From assembly GCF_026151205.1 (NCBI RefSeq), contig NC_087078.1, forward strand, positions 15,021,118-15,085,117: 64,000 nt of DNA. Direction: 5' to 3'. This DNA is from Bolinopsis microptera (lineage: Eukaryota > Ctenophora > Tentaculata > Lobata > Bolinopsidae). Position numbers and translations under genes: made by a program. Under the pieces are notes generated by a model. That model did not search any database and was not told where the DNA came from. It worked only from the letters and a program-made list of their open reading frames with translations. Shown here piece by piece: positions 18,426 through 63,439 of this stretch (position 1 is the stretch's first letter; each line of letters begins with the position of its first letter).

Positions 18426-20388
18426 AATAATTGTATTCTGTCATTTCTTTCCGTAGAAATTAAAAGGCACAAATCATTAAGGATGATTCGGCATTTAAAT
18501 GCACTTTTTATTACGAGGGCACGCAATTTCAATGCCTAATTCAACTGAATAGTAGAATATGTAATACGGCACTATAGAATTGTAATAAAGCCATCCTTAT
18601 TACAGTCCTCATAACCTTATTCACGTATATTTCTTCGAATTTAAAGCGGCCTCTTGAAAATGTTTTAAAAGCCAGTTATTAATTCAGTATCGGCTCAAAG
18701 ATTTTAGATCTCCGAATTCCACCACATTCAGCCAGCTGATTTAATGTTAGCTCTCGTGTGAGAGAAGGAGAAGAGAAATAGACGCATACACAATGCACAA
18801 TACACATGGACAGTGACAATTGTGTATACTGTATAGGCTCAAAGCTTATCTGTGACCTAAAAAGGCAGCTCATACGTTTTACATTTCCTAAACTTGACTA
18901 TTGCAATGAACTTTATTAGTATGGTTTACCTGATTTTCTTCCAAACTTCAATAAGTATAAAACTCCTGTACATTCACTTCTTATTTGATGGAAAAGCCAT
19001 AAAAATGGGATGGTGTCACTTCTTTTCTTTAAAAAAAGGCCCACTTTCTTCCAATAAGACAAAGAATAAAGGTCGATCGGCGTCTACCTGAGTGTCGTGA
19101 TCAAAGTAGACCTCGTATATGCTTCAGATAAATCTGCTGCAGTGCATACTACAGTCACAACTCACAGATATGCAAAAAAAGCACCACTAACTTTTTGAAT
19201 CTTCCTCAGAGTTTTGTTGGCACTTTTATACCGAAACAACTGCAGTCCCCTAACTTTTACCTTTTTCTTGATTAAGCGGTTAGTAAATTACAAACAAAAC
19301 ACGCACATTGCTATCAGGATTATTAGATGACAAAGTCAAACTGAACAATAGATTTCTTGCGCGGCGAAAAAGCATTGTAAGGAAAATATTAATACACACA
19401 AAATCAAAATATTTTTGCAATTATGCCCAATACAAATAGTCATGGAAATGAGAAATGCATTGATGCTTTTGTCAAGTGTGAGGTTGGGTCGTCATTAATA
19501 TAATATAAGGTAAGTTGCGGTAGATGTTGGCGTGGTTTATACCAAATATCAAGTAAGATAGGTTCGAAAAAAAGTAAAATGAACCAAATAAAACGTAACT
19601 GCTGATATTCTGATATTATTAAAAGCAACTATAACAGGGACGGTAAAATGATTTATTGTTTAAACAGAAACCAATACCTACGTCAAACACAATTAAACGT
19701 ACTAAACTGCGGAGTCTAGTATAATTAAAGTAGAATCCTGATTCAGGATGTTACTGAAGATAGTAATGAAAATGTTTTAACACCTCAGTACTGTGTATTA
19801 CTACAGCTCAACCTGCTCAGTCTGACTAATTGGGAATTTAAACTCTTGATAAAGTAGAATCCTAATTGACTTGTCATGTGAGGGAATGAATCTAAAATAA
19901 TGAGATGATGATTGAAGAAATAAGTAAGAACCGCCAAAATACGGGTACTTGGAGCTGATGATATAAACATAAATAAACAAACTCACTCTATCTAGCTTTA
20001 ATATTACAAAACCGAGTTTTAGAAGCCGAGAAAAGAGATCTGTCACGTGATAACTGCACGTGTGCTAGAGGTTAAGGATGGGAATGATATAATTACGTTA
20101 TAGCAATTCCGCAAATTTGGTGGTTCAATAAAATATAATCGTCAATATAATGTCATTAAAGAATCCGATTTAAATTCAAAGAAATATACGTCGTAAGGTT
20201 ATGAGGATCGCAATAAGGATAGCCTTATTACAATTCTATAGTGCCGTATTACATATTCTACTATTCAGTTGAATTAGGCATTGAAATTGCGTGCCCTCGT
20301 AATAAAAAGTGCATTTAAATGCCGAATCATCCTTAATGATTTGTGCCTTTTAATTTCTACGGAAAGAAATTACAGAATACAATTATTG
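18425..20388. mobile_element. Element of about 1.96 kb with 220-bp terminal inverted repeats
   Basis: The left arm, 18425-18646, begins CAATAATTGTATTCTGT and is matched in inverse by 20169-20388 with only scattered differences. The 1.5-kb centre is AT-rich, with no transposase-like frame; the minus-strand frames at 19440-20046 lack motifs. No clear target duplication flanks it. It resembles a non-autonomous long-inverted-repeat DNA transposon. Confidence 0.8.
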
Positions 20389-55080: not shown

Positions 55081-55937
55081 TATCACAATGCTGGCAAGCA
55101 TAACCGTTGCCCTTATATTCACAACACTATGTACCCCCTATACTATTATATCCCCTTTATTGTTTTCCAGGCATTAAGACTCATCGAAAGTAGTTCAGCA
55201 GGTATATTTAAGTTCAAAACATTCTAATTCAATGTTAAAGATGACAGGAATAAGAAATAGTTATGTGGAGGTTTTTAAGAAATTTGCGCAAAATACGCGC
55301 CAGCATGTTATACGAAATTAGGTAAAAAACCCAAAATCGCCATATTCAGGTGCCTTAAAAACCATGTTAAAATTGAGTTAGAGATCTGAAACTTTGCAGA
55401 GCGTCTAGACCTTGTCCAAATCGACTGTAAAAAAAATTTCATGTTGCAGGAGTATCGGGAAGTGGGTTTTCTGGAACCCCTGTTTTACAACAGATTGTCG
55501 TGAAGCTATATATCACAATGCTGGCAAGCATTACCGTCGCCCTTATATTCACAACACTATTTACCCCCTATACGATTATATCCCCTTTATTGTTTTCCAG
55601 GCATTAAGACTCATCGAAAGTAGTTCAGCAGGTACATTTAAGTTCAAAACATTCTAATTCAATGTTGAAGATGACAGGAATAAGAAATAGTTGTATGGAG
55701 GTTTTTAAGAAATTTGCGCAAAATACGCGCCAGCATGTTATACGAAATTAGGTAAAAAACCCAAAATCGCCATATTCAGGTGCCTTAAAAACCATGTTAA
55801 AATTAAGTTAGAGATCTGAAACTTTGCAGGGCGTCTAGACCTTGTCCAAATCGACTGTAAAAAAAATGTCATGTTTCAGGAGTATCGGGAAGTGGGTTTT
55901 CTGGAACCCCTGTTTTACAACAGATTGTCGTGAAGAT
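55081..55937 (+). repeat. 430-bp tandem repeat C, two copies
   Basis: TATCACAATGCTGGCAAGCA begins copies at 55081 and 55511. Copies differ at scattered bases. A third, partial copy starts at 57611 because of the larger duplication. The short plus-strand frames at 55030-55227 and 55412-55657 repeat with the unit. Confidence 0.9.
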
Positions 55938-56105
55938 ATATATGTATGTATAGACGCTTTTTGCAGTCAATTGTAGCCTACATTTAAGTGTCCGTAGATT
56001 CAAAAGTATAAACGATACAGTCATTTCGAACCACAGGTTTTAAAGATAATTGTTTAAGCTTTAGTTTACATTGTATTGAAAAATAATTTAACGTCATCAT
56101 CATCA

Positions 56106-56123
56106 CTTGATGACGTCATCAAG
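56106..56123. repeat. 18-bp palindrome containing a CRE
   Basis: CTTGATGACGTCATCAAG holds TGACGTCA, the full CREB/ATF site. It recurs in each D copy (about 57456, 58182 and 59531), with the last base changed in b copies. Confidence 0.85.
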
Positions 56124-56953
56124 TTAAGTGTTTTTAAAACTTGACTTTTGACAAAGTAACAACTTTTTAAATCGATTTTACACTATTAAGGAGTAATTTT
56201 ATTCAAAATCTGAGGACATTTTCATCTTAGATAATTGTTCAAGCATTCCGAAAATCTACCGGAATAGTTTCCTACCTTGCTCCTTCATAAAGATATTTGC
56301 TATTGAAGTTAGTGCTTTTTTGAAGAATAATTTTATAAAAACACAAAAGTTGTGAATTAGTATTCTCTGGTGTTGGGCCATCCCTTGGGTTGTGGAGCTC
56401 AATTTTGCTTCTTAAAGGTGTAAATTGTGTTATAGGCTAGTTTTAAAGTTAAAAATCGAAAAGTTGCACACGTGGGGACACGCCCAAATTCATTTAAAAT
56501 CGCTAAAATCGCTAAAAATTTTGATTTTCACGATTTTTATCAACTTTGGAGTCCCGCTGTGATCCAAATTCTTTTTGAAATCTTCTGAAACTTTGCATGC
56601 TTATCAAACTATATATTAAATACCACTATGCAAAAATTTACGGTGATTCAATATTGTATGCGCACGCGACGTCCGCTCAAAGTTTGCACGTGCGAAAGGT
56701 GAGAAATTTGCTCATTCGTGATTTCGAATATATTCTGCTTTCCACGATATTTAAATGGCATTATATATGAATTTAATGCCAACTTGAATGAGTAAAAAGT
56801 GCCATATTCAGTCGGTTATCGACAGAAATACCTAACTAAACACAAGGAAACGTTTTCAAAGGCAGAATTTCGAAATCGTCGAAATTACCTCCTTGTTAAT
56901 GAAGTTTCGACTAGCTGTGTAAATTATCCTGACATTATAATCAAAAAGAGATG

Positions 56954-57286
56954 ATATTTGACCAAAACCCATAATCATGGGTAGAGTGTACCGCTGCCAG
57001 TGTCTCTCTTTTCCAAACAAAAGGAAATGATATTAATTTGAGGAACAGTCCGCTAATGCAAATTGATACCGAGAATGAAATCGGTCGCTCGCTTTTTCCA
57101 TTCGATCACGGCTTACGAATTGTAATAAAGCTTATTGATTTGAAAAAGCGAGCGACCGATTTCATTCTCGGTATCAATTTGCATTAGCGGACTGTTCCTC
57201 AAATTAATATCATTTCCTTTTGTTTGGAAAAGAGAGACACTGGCAGCGGTACACTCTACCCATGATTATGGGTTTTGGTCAAATAT
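56954..57286. repeat. Large hairpin 1: 145-bp exact arms, 43-nt loop
   Basis: Left arm 56954-57098 and right arm 57142-57286 are exact inverse complements by eye. The loop includes AATAAAGCTT. Confidence 0.95.
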
Positions 57287-58019
57287 ATATATATATATGT
57301 ATAGACGCTTTTGCAGTAAATTGTAGCCTACATTTAAGTGTCCGTAGATTCAAAAGTATAAAAGATACAGTCATTTCGAACCACAGGTTTTAAAGATAAT
57401 TGTTTATACTTTAGTTTACATTATATCGAAAAATAATTTATCGTCATCATCATCACTTGATGACGTCATCAATTTAAGTGTTTTTAAAACTTGATTTTTG
57501 ACAAAATAACAACTTTTCAAATCGATTTTAAAGCATTAAGGAGTAATTTTATTCAAAATCTGAGGACATTTTCACCTTAGATAATTGTTCAAGCATTCTG
57601 AAAATCTACCGTCGCCCTTATATTCACAACACTATTTACCCCCTATACGATTATATCCCCTTTATTGTTTTCCAGGCATTAAGACTCATCGAAAGTAGTT
57701 CAGCAGGTACATTTAAGTTCAAAACATTCTAATTCAATGTTGAAGATGACAGGAATAAGAAATAGTTGTATGGAGGTTTTTAAGAAATTTGCGCAAAATA
57801 CGCGCCAGCATGTTATACGAAATTAGGTAAAAAACCCAAAATCGCCATATTCAGGTGCCTTAAAAACCATGTTAAAATTGAGTTAGAGATCTGAAACTTT
57901 GCAGGGCGTCTAGACCTTGTCCAAATCGACTGTAAAAAAAATGTCATGTTTCAGGAGTATCGGGAAGTGGGTTTTCTGGAACCCCTGTTTTACAACAGAT
58001 TGTCGTGAAGATATATATG

Positions 58020-59365
58020 TATGTATAGACGCTTTTTGCAGTCAATTGTAGCCTACATTTAAGTGTCCGTAGATTCAAAAGTATAAACGATACAGTCATT
58101 TCGAACCACAGGTTTTAAAGATAATTGTTTAAGCTTTAGTTTACATTGTATTGAAAAATAATTTAACGTCATCATCATCACTTGATGACGTCATCAAGTT
58201 AAGTGTTTTTAAAACTTGACTTTTGACAAAGTAACAACTTTTTAAATCGATTTTACACTATTAAGGAGTAATTTTATTCAAAATCTGAGGACATTTTCAT
58301 CTTAGATAATTTTCAAGCATTCCGAAAATCTACCGGAATAGTTTCCTACCTTGCTCCTTCATAAAGATATTTGCTATTGAAGTTAGTGCTTTTTTGAAGA
58401 ATAATTTTATAAAAACACAAAAGTTGTGAATTAGTATTCTCTGGTGTTGGGCCATCCCTTGGGTTGTGGAGCTCAATTTTGCTTCTTAAAGGTGTAAATT
58501 GTGTTATAGGCTAGTTTTAAAGTTAAAAATCGAAAAGTTGCACACGTGGGGACACGCCCAAATTCATTTAAAATCGCTAAAATCGCTAAAAATTTTGATT
58601 TTCACGATTTTTATCAACTTTGGAGTCCCGCTGTGATCCAAATTCTTTTTGAAATCTTCTGAAACTTTGCATGCTTATCAAACTATATATTAAATACCAC
58701 TATGCAAAAATTTACGGTGATTCAATATTGTATGCGCACGCGACGTCCGCTCAAAGTTTGCACGTGCGAAAGGTGAGAAATTTGCTCATTCGTGATTTCG
58801 AATATATTCTGCTTTCCACGATATTTAAATGGCATTATATATGAATTTAATGCCAACTTGAATGAGTAAAAAGTGCCATATTCAGTCGGTTATCGACAGA
58901 AATACCTAACTAAACACAAGGAAACGTTTTCAAAGGCAGAATTTCGAAATCGTCGAAATTACCTCCTTGTTAATGAAGTTTCGACTAGCTGTGTAAATTA
59001 TCCTGACATTATAATCAAAAAGAGATGATATTTGACCAAAACCCATAATCATGGGTAGAGTGTACCGCTGCCAGTGTCTCTCTTTTCCAAACAAAAGGAA
59101 ATGATATTAATTTGAGGAACAGTCCGCTAATGCAAATTGATACCGAGAATGAAATCGGTCGCTCGCTTTTTCCATTCGATCACGGCTTACGAATTGTAAT
59201 AAAGCTTATTGATTTGAAAAAGCGAGCGACCGATTTCATTCTCGGTATCAATTTGCATTAGCGGACTGTTCCTCAAATTAATATCATTTCCTTTTGTTTG
59301 GAAAAGAGAGACACTGGCAGCGGTACACTCTACCCATGATTATGGGTTTTGGTCAAATATATATA
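58020..59365 (+). repeat. Repeat D, duplicate of copy a
   Basis: Part of the 2.07-kb duplication; nearly identical to 55945-57290. Confidence 0.85.
59028..59360. repeat. Large hairpin 2, duplicate of hairpin 1
   Basis: Same arms and loop as at 56954, carried by the tandem duplication. Confidence 0.93.
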
Positions 59366-59369
59366 TATA

Positions 59370-60705
59370 TATGTATAGACGCTTTTGCAGTAAATTGTAG
59401 CCTACATTTAAGTGTCCGTAGATTCAAAAGTATAAAAGATACAGTCATTTCGAACCACAGGTTTTAAAGATAATTGTTTATACTTTAGTTTACATTATAT
59501 CGAAAAATAATTTATCGTCATCATCATCACTTGATGACGTCATCAATTTAAGTGTTTTTAAAACTTGATTTTTGACAAAATAACAACTTTTCAAATCGAT
59601 TTTAAAGCATTAAGGAGTAATTTTATTCAAAATCTGAGGACATTTTCACCTTAGATAATTGTTCAAGCATTCTGAAAATCTACCGGAAAGTTTTCCTACC
59701 TTGCTCCTTCATAAAGATATTCGCTATTGGAGTTTGTGCTTTTTTGAAGAATAATTTTATAAAAACACAAAAGTTGTGAATTAGTATTCTCTGGTGTTGG
59801 GCCATCCCTTGGGTTGTGGAGCTCAATTTTGCTTCCTAAAGGTCTAAATTGTGTTATAGGCTAGTTTTAAAGTTGAAAATCGAAAAGTTGCACACGTGGG
59901 GACACGCCCAAATTCATTTAAAATAGCTAAAATCACTAAAAATTGTTATTTTCACGATTTTTACCAACTTTGGAGTCCCGTTGTGATCCAAGTTCTTTTT
60001 GAAATCTTCTGAAACTTTTCATGCTTATCAAACTATATATTAAATAACACTATGCAAAAATTTATGGTGATTCAATATTTTATGCGCACGCAACGTCCGC
60101 TCAAAGTTTGCACGTGCGAAAGGTGAGAATTTTGCTCATTCGTGATTTCGAATATATTCTGCTTTCCCACGATATTAAAATGGCATTATATATGAATTTA
60201 ATGCCAACTTGAATGAGTAAAAAGTGCTATATTCAGTCTGTTATTGACAGATATGCCTACCTAAACACAAGGAAACGTTTTCAAAGGTAAAATTTCGAAA
60301 TCGTTGAAATTACCTCCTTATTAAGTTTCGACTGTGTAAATTATCCTGACATTATAATCAAAAAGAGATGATATTTGACCAAAACCCATAATCATGGGTA
60401 GAGTGAACCGCTGCCAGTGTCTCTCTTTTCCAAACAAAAGAAAATGATATTAATTTGAGGAACCGTCCGCAAATGCAAATTGATACCGAGAATGAAATCG
60501 GTCGCTCGCTTTTCCCATTCATTCACGGCTTACGTATTGTAATAAAGCTTATTGAATGGGAAAAGCGAGCGACCGATTTCATTCTCGGTATCAATTTGCA
60601 TTTGCGGACGGTTCCTCAAATTAATATCATTTTCTTTTGTTTGGAAAAGAGAGACACTGGCAGCGGTTCACTCTACCCATGATTATGGGTTTTGGTCAAA
60701 TAGAT
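59370..60705 (+). repeat. Repeat D, copy b (diverged)
   Basis: Aligns with copy a throughout with frequent substitutions and small deletions. Confidence 0.85.
60374..60702. repeat. Large hairpin 3, diverged but still exactly paired
   Basis: Arms are about 150 bp, slightly longer than in hairpins 1 and 2, from ATTTGACC to CCCATTC and back from GAATGGG. At least five positions differ from hairpin 1, each with the matching change in the opposite arm. The both-strand frames at 60455-60785 are a product of the symmetry. Confidence 0.93.
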
Positions 60706-61197: not shown

Positions 61198-61311
61198 TTT
61201 CATTTATTTCAACTCTTTGAATTTTATTTCGACTCTTTGAATTTTATTAACATGCATGTTAATAAAATTCAAAGAGTTGAAATAAAATTCAAAGAGTTGA
61301 AATAAATGAAA
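61198..61311. repeat. 114-bp palindrome with no loop
   Basis: 57-bp arms meet at CATGCATG with one mismatch. Each arm is itself a tandem of AACTCTTTGAATTTTATTTC-like words. Confidence 0.95.
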
Positions 61312-62175: not shown

Positions 62176-62675
62176 TTGCATTTTCTCAAGGACTTTGGAA
62201 ATTCTAAACGTATAACCGCCGCTCTTATCAAAAATAGGTCTGTTTATGTGTTACTGAGGGTGTAGTTCTTTACTAAGACTATGATTGAACCTATATTGAG
62301 ATTCAGTTATCTGAGAACAGTGACTTGATCTGGTAGAGATCAGGAGACAGTTATTTGAAGACGCCTCTTGATAGAGTCGATCAGATCCCATGCGTGATCG
62401 CAAATATGTGACACGCTTGTTGGCATTGATTGTCAGTACTTGTAAACCATTTGATCCAAGATCCATTGAGCCCACAATAAAGCCAACGCTACATTCTACA
62501 ACGAATAGAGCTCATTACCCTTTACACCTACTTCTTCTATTATCACCTACTTTGGATCATGGAATCTACTCAACAACTTCAACCCCTGATATAGAGTAAT
62601 CAGATGTGGTGAAGTTACGAATGATAACTGATACACTATAATCGAAGTACGGTAATGACGAGGGTTCCATAACGG

Positions 62676-62955
62676 CCTGGTTCACGGTCCCGAAAGGGCC
62701 TGGGTCACGGTCCCGAAAGGGCCTTGGTCACGGTCCCGAAAGGGCCTGGGTAACGGTCCCGAAAGGGCCTCGGTAACGTGGTAACCGGGTCACGTGGCCT
62801 AAGCATGAGTTCCAAAAGGGCCTGGGTCACGGTCCCGAAAGGGCCTGGGTCACGTGGCCTAAGCATGAGTTCCAAAAGGGCCTGGGTCACGGTCCCGAAA
62901 GGGCCTGGGTCAGGGTCCCGAAAGGGCCTGAGTCACGGTCCTATAAAAGGGCCCG
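62676..62955 (+). repeat. 23-bp GC-rich minisatellite with a 60-bp higher-order unit
   Basis: About nine copies of GGTCACGGTCCCGAAAGGGC plus CTG. Two copies of a 37-bp variant, TCACGTGGCCTAAGCATGAG onward, are 60 bp apart and carry CACGTG. CCCGAAAGGG can self-pair. Frames on both strands are translations of the repeat. Confidence 0.92.
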
Positions 62956-63439
62956 ACTTTTAACATATTTTGGTTTTTACACTCGAAAATCTTACCGCGA
63001 AAATTTTTGATACATGTTTCGTATCCAAATATCAGAGATATTATGGATACACCATGAAGGAACATCTCTGCGCGGCGTAAGTAAATTTACAAGTTCGCGC
63101 GAAAAATTGTCTTATTTTCCTGGCGCTTTGTTCTCGCGCCGGGAGTGAATCACTAATTAGCTAACTACTTCACTAGCATAATCTACATCTACAATACGAA
63201 GTAAGAGTTACCACGTTACTCTTTTATTTCTCCGTTAAGCCTACAATTCTAATAACTAACAATGGAGTATGAGGTCAATTAAATGTCCATAGATATGGAT
63301 TATAGAAATTATATAAACACATAATTGAACAGCATGAGACAAGTGGAAAACTAACAAACGAATAGATTTCAAGCTCGTAAAGGATCGTTGCTGGATATTG
63401 GAGATTTCAAAACTGTAGTCCGACAGTCAAAGTTCTCTT
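62956..63439. other. Non-coding stretch, no gene seen
   Basis: No supported exon or repeat. Confidence 0.4.

Follow-up and report, generated by a model that had tools for sequence, protein, structure and literature searches.

How can the two arms of a giant hairpin change their sequence and still pair exactly? The question is raised by three such hairpins in a stretch of 64,000 nucleotides from the ctenophore Bolinopsis microptera (contig NC_087078.1 of assembly GCF_026151205.1, positions 15,021,118 to 15,085,117 of the forward strand), called the window in what follows. A sequence-only reading had described arms that change in concert, and had offered three explanations: arm-to-arm gene conversion, formation of each copy by fold-back synthesis from one arm, or selection on a double-stranded RNA (dsRNA) that feeds small-RNA silencing. 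Our comparison of genomic copies places the hairpin at the 3' end of a dispersed mobile element of about 1.8 kb, with the order A-(TA)n-BODY-hairpin, and on balance we favour the view that every transposition cycle matches its arms afresh by way of a folded single strand. The hairpins and their parts are the following.

56954-57286, forward strand: hairpin 1, arms of 153 nt, 98% complementary, spacer of 27 nt
59028-59360, forward strand: hairpin 2, arms of 153 nt, 98% complementary, spacer of 27 nt; letter for letter the same as hairpin 1
60372-60702, forward strand: hairpin 3, arms of 150 nt, 100% complementary, spacer of 31 nt; newest subfamily
56956 to 57284, forward strand: stem of hairpin 1 as counted here, from ATTTGACC (56956) to GGTCAAAT (57284); the last element base is read as 57283
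57107-57133, forward strand: spacer (loop) of hairpin 1, in the orientation labelled O2
58312-59685, forward strand: exact tandem duplicate of 56238-57611 at offset 2074, with hairpin 2 inside

The stem and end positions of hairpin 1 were converted from the coordinates of L001 and L002 (L numbers are our handles for genomic loci). The identity of hairpins 1 and 2 results from a 2,074-bp tandem duplication in which 56238-57611 recurs exactly, so that the window holds two, not three, independent versions. In hairpin 1 pairing is unbroken over the outer 143 positions, and the few mismatches all adjoin the loop. All five arm differences named between hairpins 3 and 1 were found, each with its complement in the opposite arm.

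A dispersed element with a hairpin at its 3' end

Genome searches covered the 264.65-Mb assembly (232 contigs). A 39-nt pattern spanning the junction of BODY and left arm had 1,491 matches and a 33-nt pattern from the outer arm had 2,773, each with up to 3 mismatches allowed; the reversed control had none in either case, and the hairpin pattern is therefore not due to chance. Aligned copies consist of unit A (about 430 bp), a TA-rich spacer, BODY (about 1 kb), and the hairpin. In the first copy of the window these are laid out as below.

55513-55933, forward strand: unit A, which forms the 5' end of the first element copy (copy 1); begins TCACAATGCTGGCAAGCATT after an A, with the 5' terminal stem AATGCT-ggca-AGCATT
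55934-55951, forward strand: TA-rich spacer of copy 1, between unit A and BODY; its length varies among copies
55952-56953, forward strand: copy 1 BODY, of about 1 kb; begins AGACGC
55102-55513, forward strand: another unit A, upstream of copy 1 in head-to-tail order

Elsewhere unit A may be absent or inverted upstream of BODY, and in some copies the (TA)n spacer is occupied by Helitron sequence. A scan for open reading frames detected none of at least 120 amino acids in the element. Judging from its sequence, the family is non-autonomous and Helitron-like (of rolling-circle type), with roughly 1,500 copies.

For the comparison of arms and ends 115 hairpins were detected, of which seven were removed (flank unlike BODY; mostly the same hairpins met from the other strand) and four excluded because their arms were broken or decayed (L070, L074, L096, L103), leaving 104. 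A body alignment is available for 102 of these, and 34 of the 102 form what we call the junction sample. The sampling was not neutral: L001-L060 were chosen by similarity to hairpins 1 and 3, so that mutated arms are under-represented, whereas L061-L080 and L086-L105 are a non-random 40 of 100 listed junction places, taken in contig order on contig C1 with known places skipped, in which the left arm is exact over its first 32 nt.

The base before the TCAC start is A in all 48 copies with a readable 5' end, and in the same number with a located 5' end the base after CAAA is T; since the 5' ends were found by searching for the TCAC start and the 3' pattern included that T (up to 3 mismatches allowed), only the preceding A is unconditioned and the following T is slightly conditioned. 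Insertion thus lies between a host A and T in 48 of 48 copies, without consistent target-site duplication: in these TA-rich flanks duplications of 2, 4, 5, and 8 nt were observed 16, 5, 0, and 2 times, against 16.7, 2.2, 0.1, and 0.2 after shuffling. At L019 the flanks rejoin into an intact unit of a tandem array, and the empty unit occurs 9 times in that array. At the 3' end the motif is GGTCAAA in 99 of the 104 hairpins and GGTAAAA in the other 5, the variant being a paired change except in L068 (right arm only); a 3' CTRR was found in none of the 104, nor does pairing extend outward past the arms by any run longer than 3 nt. The 5' stem AATGCT/AGCATT of unit A (predicted at -5.8 kcal/mol) also varies on both sides, most copies having this form and a unit A variant having AGTGCT/AGCAC, as noted at the 5' ends of L066, L067, L069, L072, and L077. 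Copy 1 has no inverted match of 8-14 nt between its first 40 and last 600 nt. Some copies (L022, L078) have exact head-to-tail junctions.

With its AT-rich flanks, the palindrome resembles a miniature inverted-repeat transposable element (MITE) with long terminal inverted repeats (TIRs), and one such element might merely happen to adjoin the end of BODY. The outer-arm matches (2,773) are near, and not above, twice the 1,491 junction matches, so that free-standing hairpins must be uncommon; the target-site duplication that a MITE or other TIR transposon would show is not consistently present around the whole element, nor does copy 1 show inverted repeats at both ends. An independent MITE is accordingly a very improbable explanation.

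Paired and unpaired changes in the arms

Among the 115 detected hairpins, 111 have arms free of large gaps and with no more than 3 substitutions. We looked for copies with many unpaired differences: with the four broken or decayed copies excluded (L096 among them has 11 unpaired positions), 33 of 14,863 cells in the outer 143 positions of the 104 kept hairpins are unpaired.

There are 60 substitution alleles in the 104 hairpins. Those recurring in at least two copies are on both arms in 21 of 24 cases and on a single arm in 3, while the 40 single-copy alleles are on both arms in 13 cases and on one arm in 27 (Fisher p = 2e-5, approximate owing to shared descent, as the test treats alleles as independent). 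The three recurring single-arm changes are present in two copies each (L017/L089, L061/L068, L061/L078), and the members of each pair differ in hairpin type; the classes overlap slightly, the L061/L078 allele being also paired in 38 copies. Pairing extends to length changes, with a two-base insertion present in both arms of L063.

Arms were also compared with bodies. In successive bins of body divergence ending at 0.01, 0.03, 0.06, 0.10, 0.15, and 0.30, the mean pairwise paired arm divergence climbs (0.0005, 0.0039, 0.032, 0.032, 0.075, 0.069), while unpaired differences remain low, between 0.001 and 0.013 (0.0013, 0.0042, 0.0033, 0.0074, 0.0051, 0.0127). Resident copies nevertheless mutate: at least one unpaired arm change is found in 17 of the 34 copies of the junction sample, amounting to 27 changes in 8,618 positions or 0.0031 (24/8,364 = 0.0029 in the 33 copies without L071). 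Single-copy body changes number 104 in 11,846 or 0.0088 (67/11,486 = 0.0058 without L071), so that unpaired arm mutation runs at half to a third of a body rate that includes lineage changes; six rows with poorly aligned bodies were kept in this count and left out of the tree discussed below. Unpaired mutations therefore accumulate in residents yet are almost never shared, which fits re-matching when a daughter copy is formed.

The third explanation of the sequence-only reading was selection on a long dsRNA, or on a precursor of small RNAs, with compensatory mutation keeping the arms paired. It would agree with the predicted RNA folding energies (-278 kcal/mol for hairpin 1 and -285 for hairpin 3) and with the pairing of 99.7% of cells in 26 distinct short-loop hairpins. 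In this set 17 of the 143 pairs changed on both sides (60 cells), where shuffling gave a mean of 5.5 pairs and slid partners gave 0 or 1. Arm changes are mostly from one Watson-Crick pair to another, with few G-U states: among changed cells that still pair, the 60 altered on both sides compare with 6 in which a one-sided change gave G-U; about 10 cells are unpaired. These proportions, the unpaired changes in half of the junction sample, and the growth of paired divergence with body divergence all argue against such selection, to which we assign only a slight probability.

Palindromes are difficult to assemble, and an assembler might have filled one arm from the other. Since single copies are resolved down to their own unpaired mismatches, arm indels, nested insertions, or inverted loops, an assembly artefact is scarcely credible.

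Proposed re-matching of the arms and its rivals

As a tentative mechanism, somewhat short of even odds in our estimate, we propose that in this eukaryotic rolling-circle-type transposon the 3' end is rebuilt in every cycle when the left arm is copied by self-primed fold-back synthesis. A putative single-stranded intermediate would fold at its own 3' end; its strand would stop shortly beyond the loop, and the right arm, over its outer ~143 nt, would be synthesised with the left arm as template. The new end would be cut at GGTCAAA|T after copying, and the arms, identical at birth, would decay independently after insertion. Among the three explanations offered earlier, fold-back formation has the strongest support: nearly all recurring arm changes are paired, most single-copy changes affect one arm, and in L071 the palindrome runs through the entire loop. 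In that copy 217 positions pair with 4 mismatches; for its 181-nt centre, the one full-length match among the best 40 scored of 871 candidates in the genome is L071 itself. L071 looks like the product of a strand that turned back on itself shortly beyond the loop and then copied both the loop and the left arm.

The inheritance of mismatches suggests an inner boundary to the proposed copying. Next to the loop, at positions 144-150, mismatches have been passed on to as many as 35 copies; within positions 1-143 only three mismatches were seen twice, so that wide inheritance is restricted to the ~8 bp adjoining the loop. Mismatch repair on the folded single strand during transposition, with either arm as template and no fold-back synthesis, would account for the same pattern of paired and unpaired changes, and also for the wide inheritance only of mismatches that merely widen the loop. 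It leaves the palindrome through the whole loop of L071 unexplained, and we regard it as an unlikely alternative.

The loop itself is present in both orientations. A tree of 70 rows (L071 excluded) requires at least 4 changes of orientation, with 12 of its 66 inner branches well supported; the short loops of the junction sample divide into 10 O2 and 9 O1; and the inner mismatches of hairpin 1 are mirrored in the inverted copies L086, L088, and L099. These inversions suggest that the arms do exchange. The newest burst behaves differently: a query covering hairpin 3 (60340-60702) found 100% identity over 362-363 bp in all 40 scored candidates, the window copy included, hence a single orientation in a query-biased set, and with the query inverted none of the 40 scored candidates matched at 100%. 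Loop inversion seemingly does not occur in every cycle, since the burst has one orientation among the candidates scored; an obligatory flip-flop, absent from those candidates, was rejected.

In-situ gene conversion between resident arms, with occasional crossing-over that inverts the loop and with transposition copying the matched arms faithfully, is the rival to which these data lend most substance. It would account for loop inversion in several lineages and for the mirrored inner mismatches, and the 12 paired single-copy arm changes of the junction sample could be post-insertion mutations that were converted. That half of the sampled copies keep private unpaired changes implies that conversion is not fast; moreover, shared outer-arm mismatches are almost absent, so that parents would need to have been converted recently every time. 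The gene conversion of the sequence-only reading thus stands as a possible rival in source copies, although we judge it rather unlikely as the general explanation.

Several points weigh against our preference for re-matching by fold-back copying. Loop inversion is left unexplained by such copying alone. L065 and L078, with identical 354-nt bodies, have two paired arm differences and opposite loops, and belong among the inversions that conversion would explain. The deficit of unpaired arm changes relative to the body, perhaps offset by the 12 paired single-copy changes, may fit conversion in resident copies. Mismatches adjoining the loop would escape mismatch repair too. The copying direction, with the left arm as template, is read from a single copy, L071. 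Finally, the element has no RepHel gene, and an autonomous partner was not found in the flanks examined, those of one RepHel family.

Known systems, Helitron neighbours, and other features

The two ends of a long terminal repeat (LTR) retrotransposon are identical at birth and then decay independently. The arms described here would, on our reading, resemble them in being the same at birth and decaying separately, and differ in being inverted arms of a hairpin at one end rather than direct repeats; arms matched at birth could date insertions as LTRs do. In parvoviruses rolling-hairpin replication acts on a long terminal hairpin, with flip and flop forms among sister copies and a self-templated end. 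The element shares the long terminal hairpin, both loop orientations (here across subfamilies), and the proposed self-templated end; it differs in that its newest burst has one orientation among the copies scored and in its chromosomal A|T insertion. Foldback-type transposons (Tetris) reportedly have long inverted repeats, whereas here both arms lie at one end of the element. If our reading is correct, a chromosomal transposon would use an end-replication strategy that has an LTR-like outcome and a hairpin-like mechanism. The single-stranded stage of Helitron-like elements is hard to observe; this genome seems to hold a record of it in roughly 1,500 natural replicates, and the matching of arms would imply folding or arm-to-arm copying during the cycle.

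Helitrons, according to PMC6544945, are characterised by a TC start, insertion between A and T without duplication, and a palindrome of 16-20 bp near the 3' end. PMC4778049 describes in Helraiser a 19-bp 3' palindrome, 11 nt inside the end, that acts as a transposition terminator; by analogy, a terminator role may be inferred for the giant hairpin. With Helitron1 elements (Helraiser/Helibat) our element has in common the 5'-TC, insertion between A and T without consistent duplication, a 3' hairpin, and some head-to-tail junctions; it differs in being without CTRR and without a RepHel gene, and in a stem of ~143-150 bp that reaches the element end, as opposed to a short palindrome set about 10 nt inside. 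Helitron2-type elements of Fusarium (FoHeli1/2) begin with TCAG (PMC5148889) and resemble ours in having stems at both termini (here the 5' AATGCT/AGCATT and the giant 3' stem). Unlike Helitron2, copy 1 is without an asymmetric terminal inverted repeat (of at least 8 nt), and its 3' stem is giant. Among the titles and abstract beginnings listed from the open literature, we recognised none that describes a Helitron-like element with a giant hairpin at its end or with arms that change in concert.

A search with PF14214 gave 41 genome matches, and the flanks were examined for one RepHel family, on contigs C11 and C8. Contig C11 holds three RepHel Helitron copies of this family within 23 kb (3834408, 3846209, 3856595), each followed at a similar distance by a giant hairpin (L082, L084, L085); unit A lies 5' of the third copy (L081), the hairpin of which (L085) is interrupted by an insertion of unit A. 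L083 contains the helicase end of the RepHel gene (Pif1_2B, E = 4e-21), and remnants of the family adjoin BODY at L062 and L045. These copies, flanked by unit A and by BODY with its hairpin, were considered as the autonomous parent. The candidate was rejected because the copy on C8 (L106) terminates in a short palindrome and CTAG that belong to it, followed by other DNA, with no BODY or hairpin beside it in the 601 bases of L106. The RepHel Helitrons are therefore read as nested in the (TA)n spacer, and the apparent autonomous partner is better read as a Helitron nested within the element. Within the window, 19201-19307 (107 bp) shares ~77% identity with a stretch close to the 5' end of the L081 Helitron.

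Other repeats of the window include a second palindrome at 61198-61311, with 57-nt arms, no spacer, and 98% complementarity, which in full matches only itself among the best 40 scored of 95 candidates, while its single halves match many places. At 62641-62964 there is a G+C-rich tandem repeat with a 23-bp period and GTCCCGAAAGGGCCTGGGTCACG-like units, and between 53689 and 54699 a stretch of at least 300 bp has an exact repeat 711 bp on. Adjoining a copy of the element, L012 has two matches to the type I hammerhead ribozyme (RF00163; 35.9 bits, gathering score 34) at 1171-1217 and 1448-1494.
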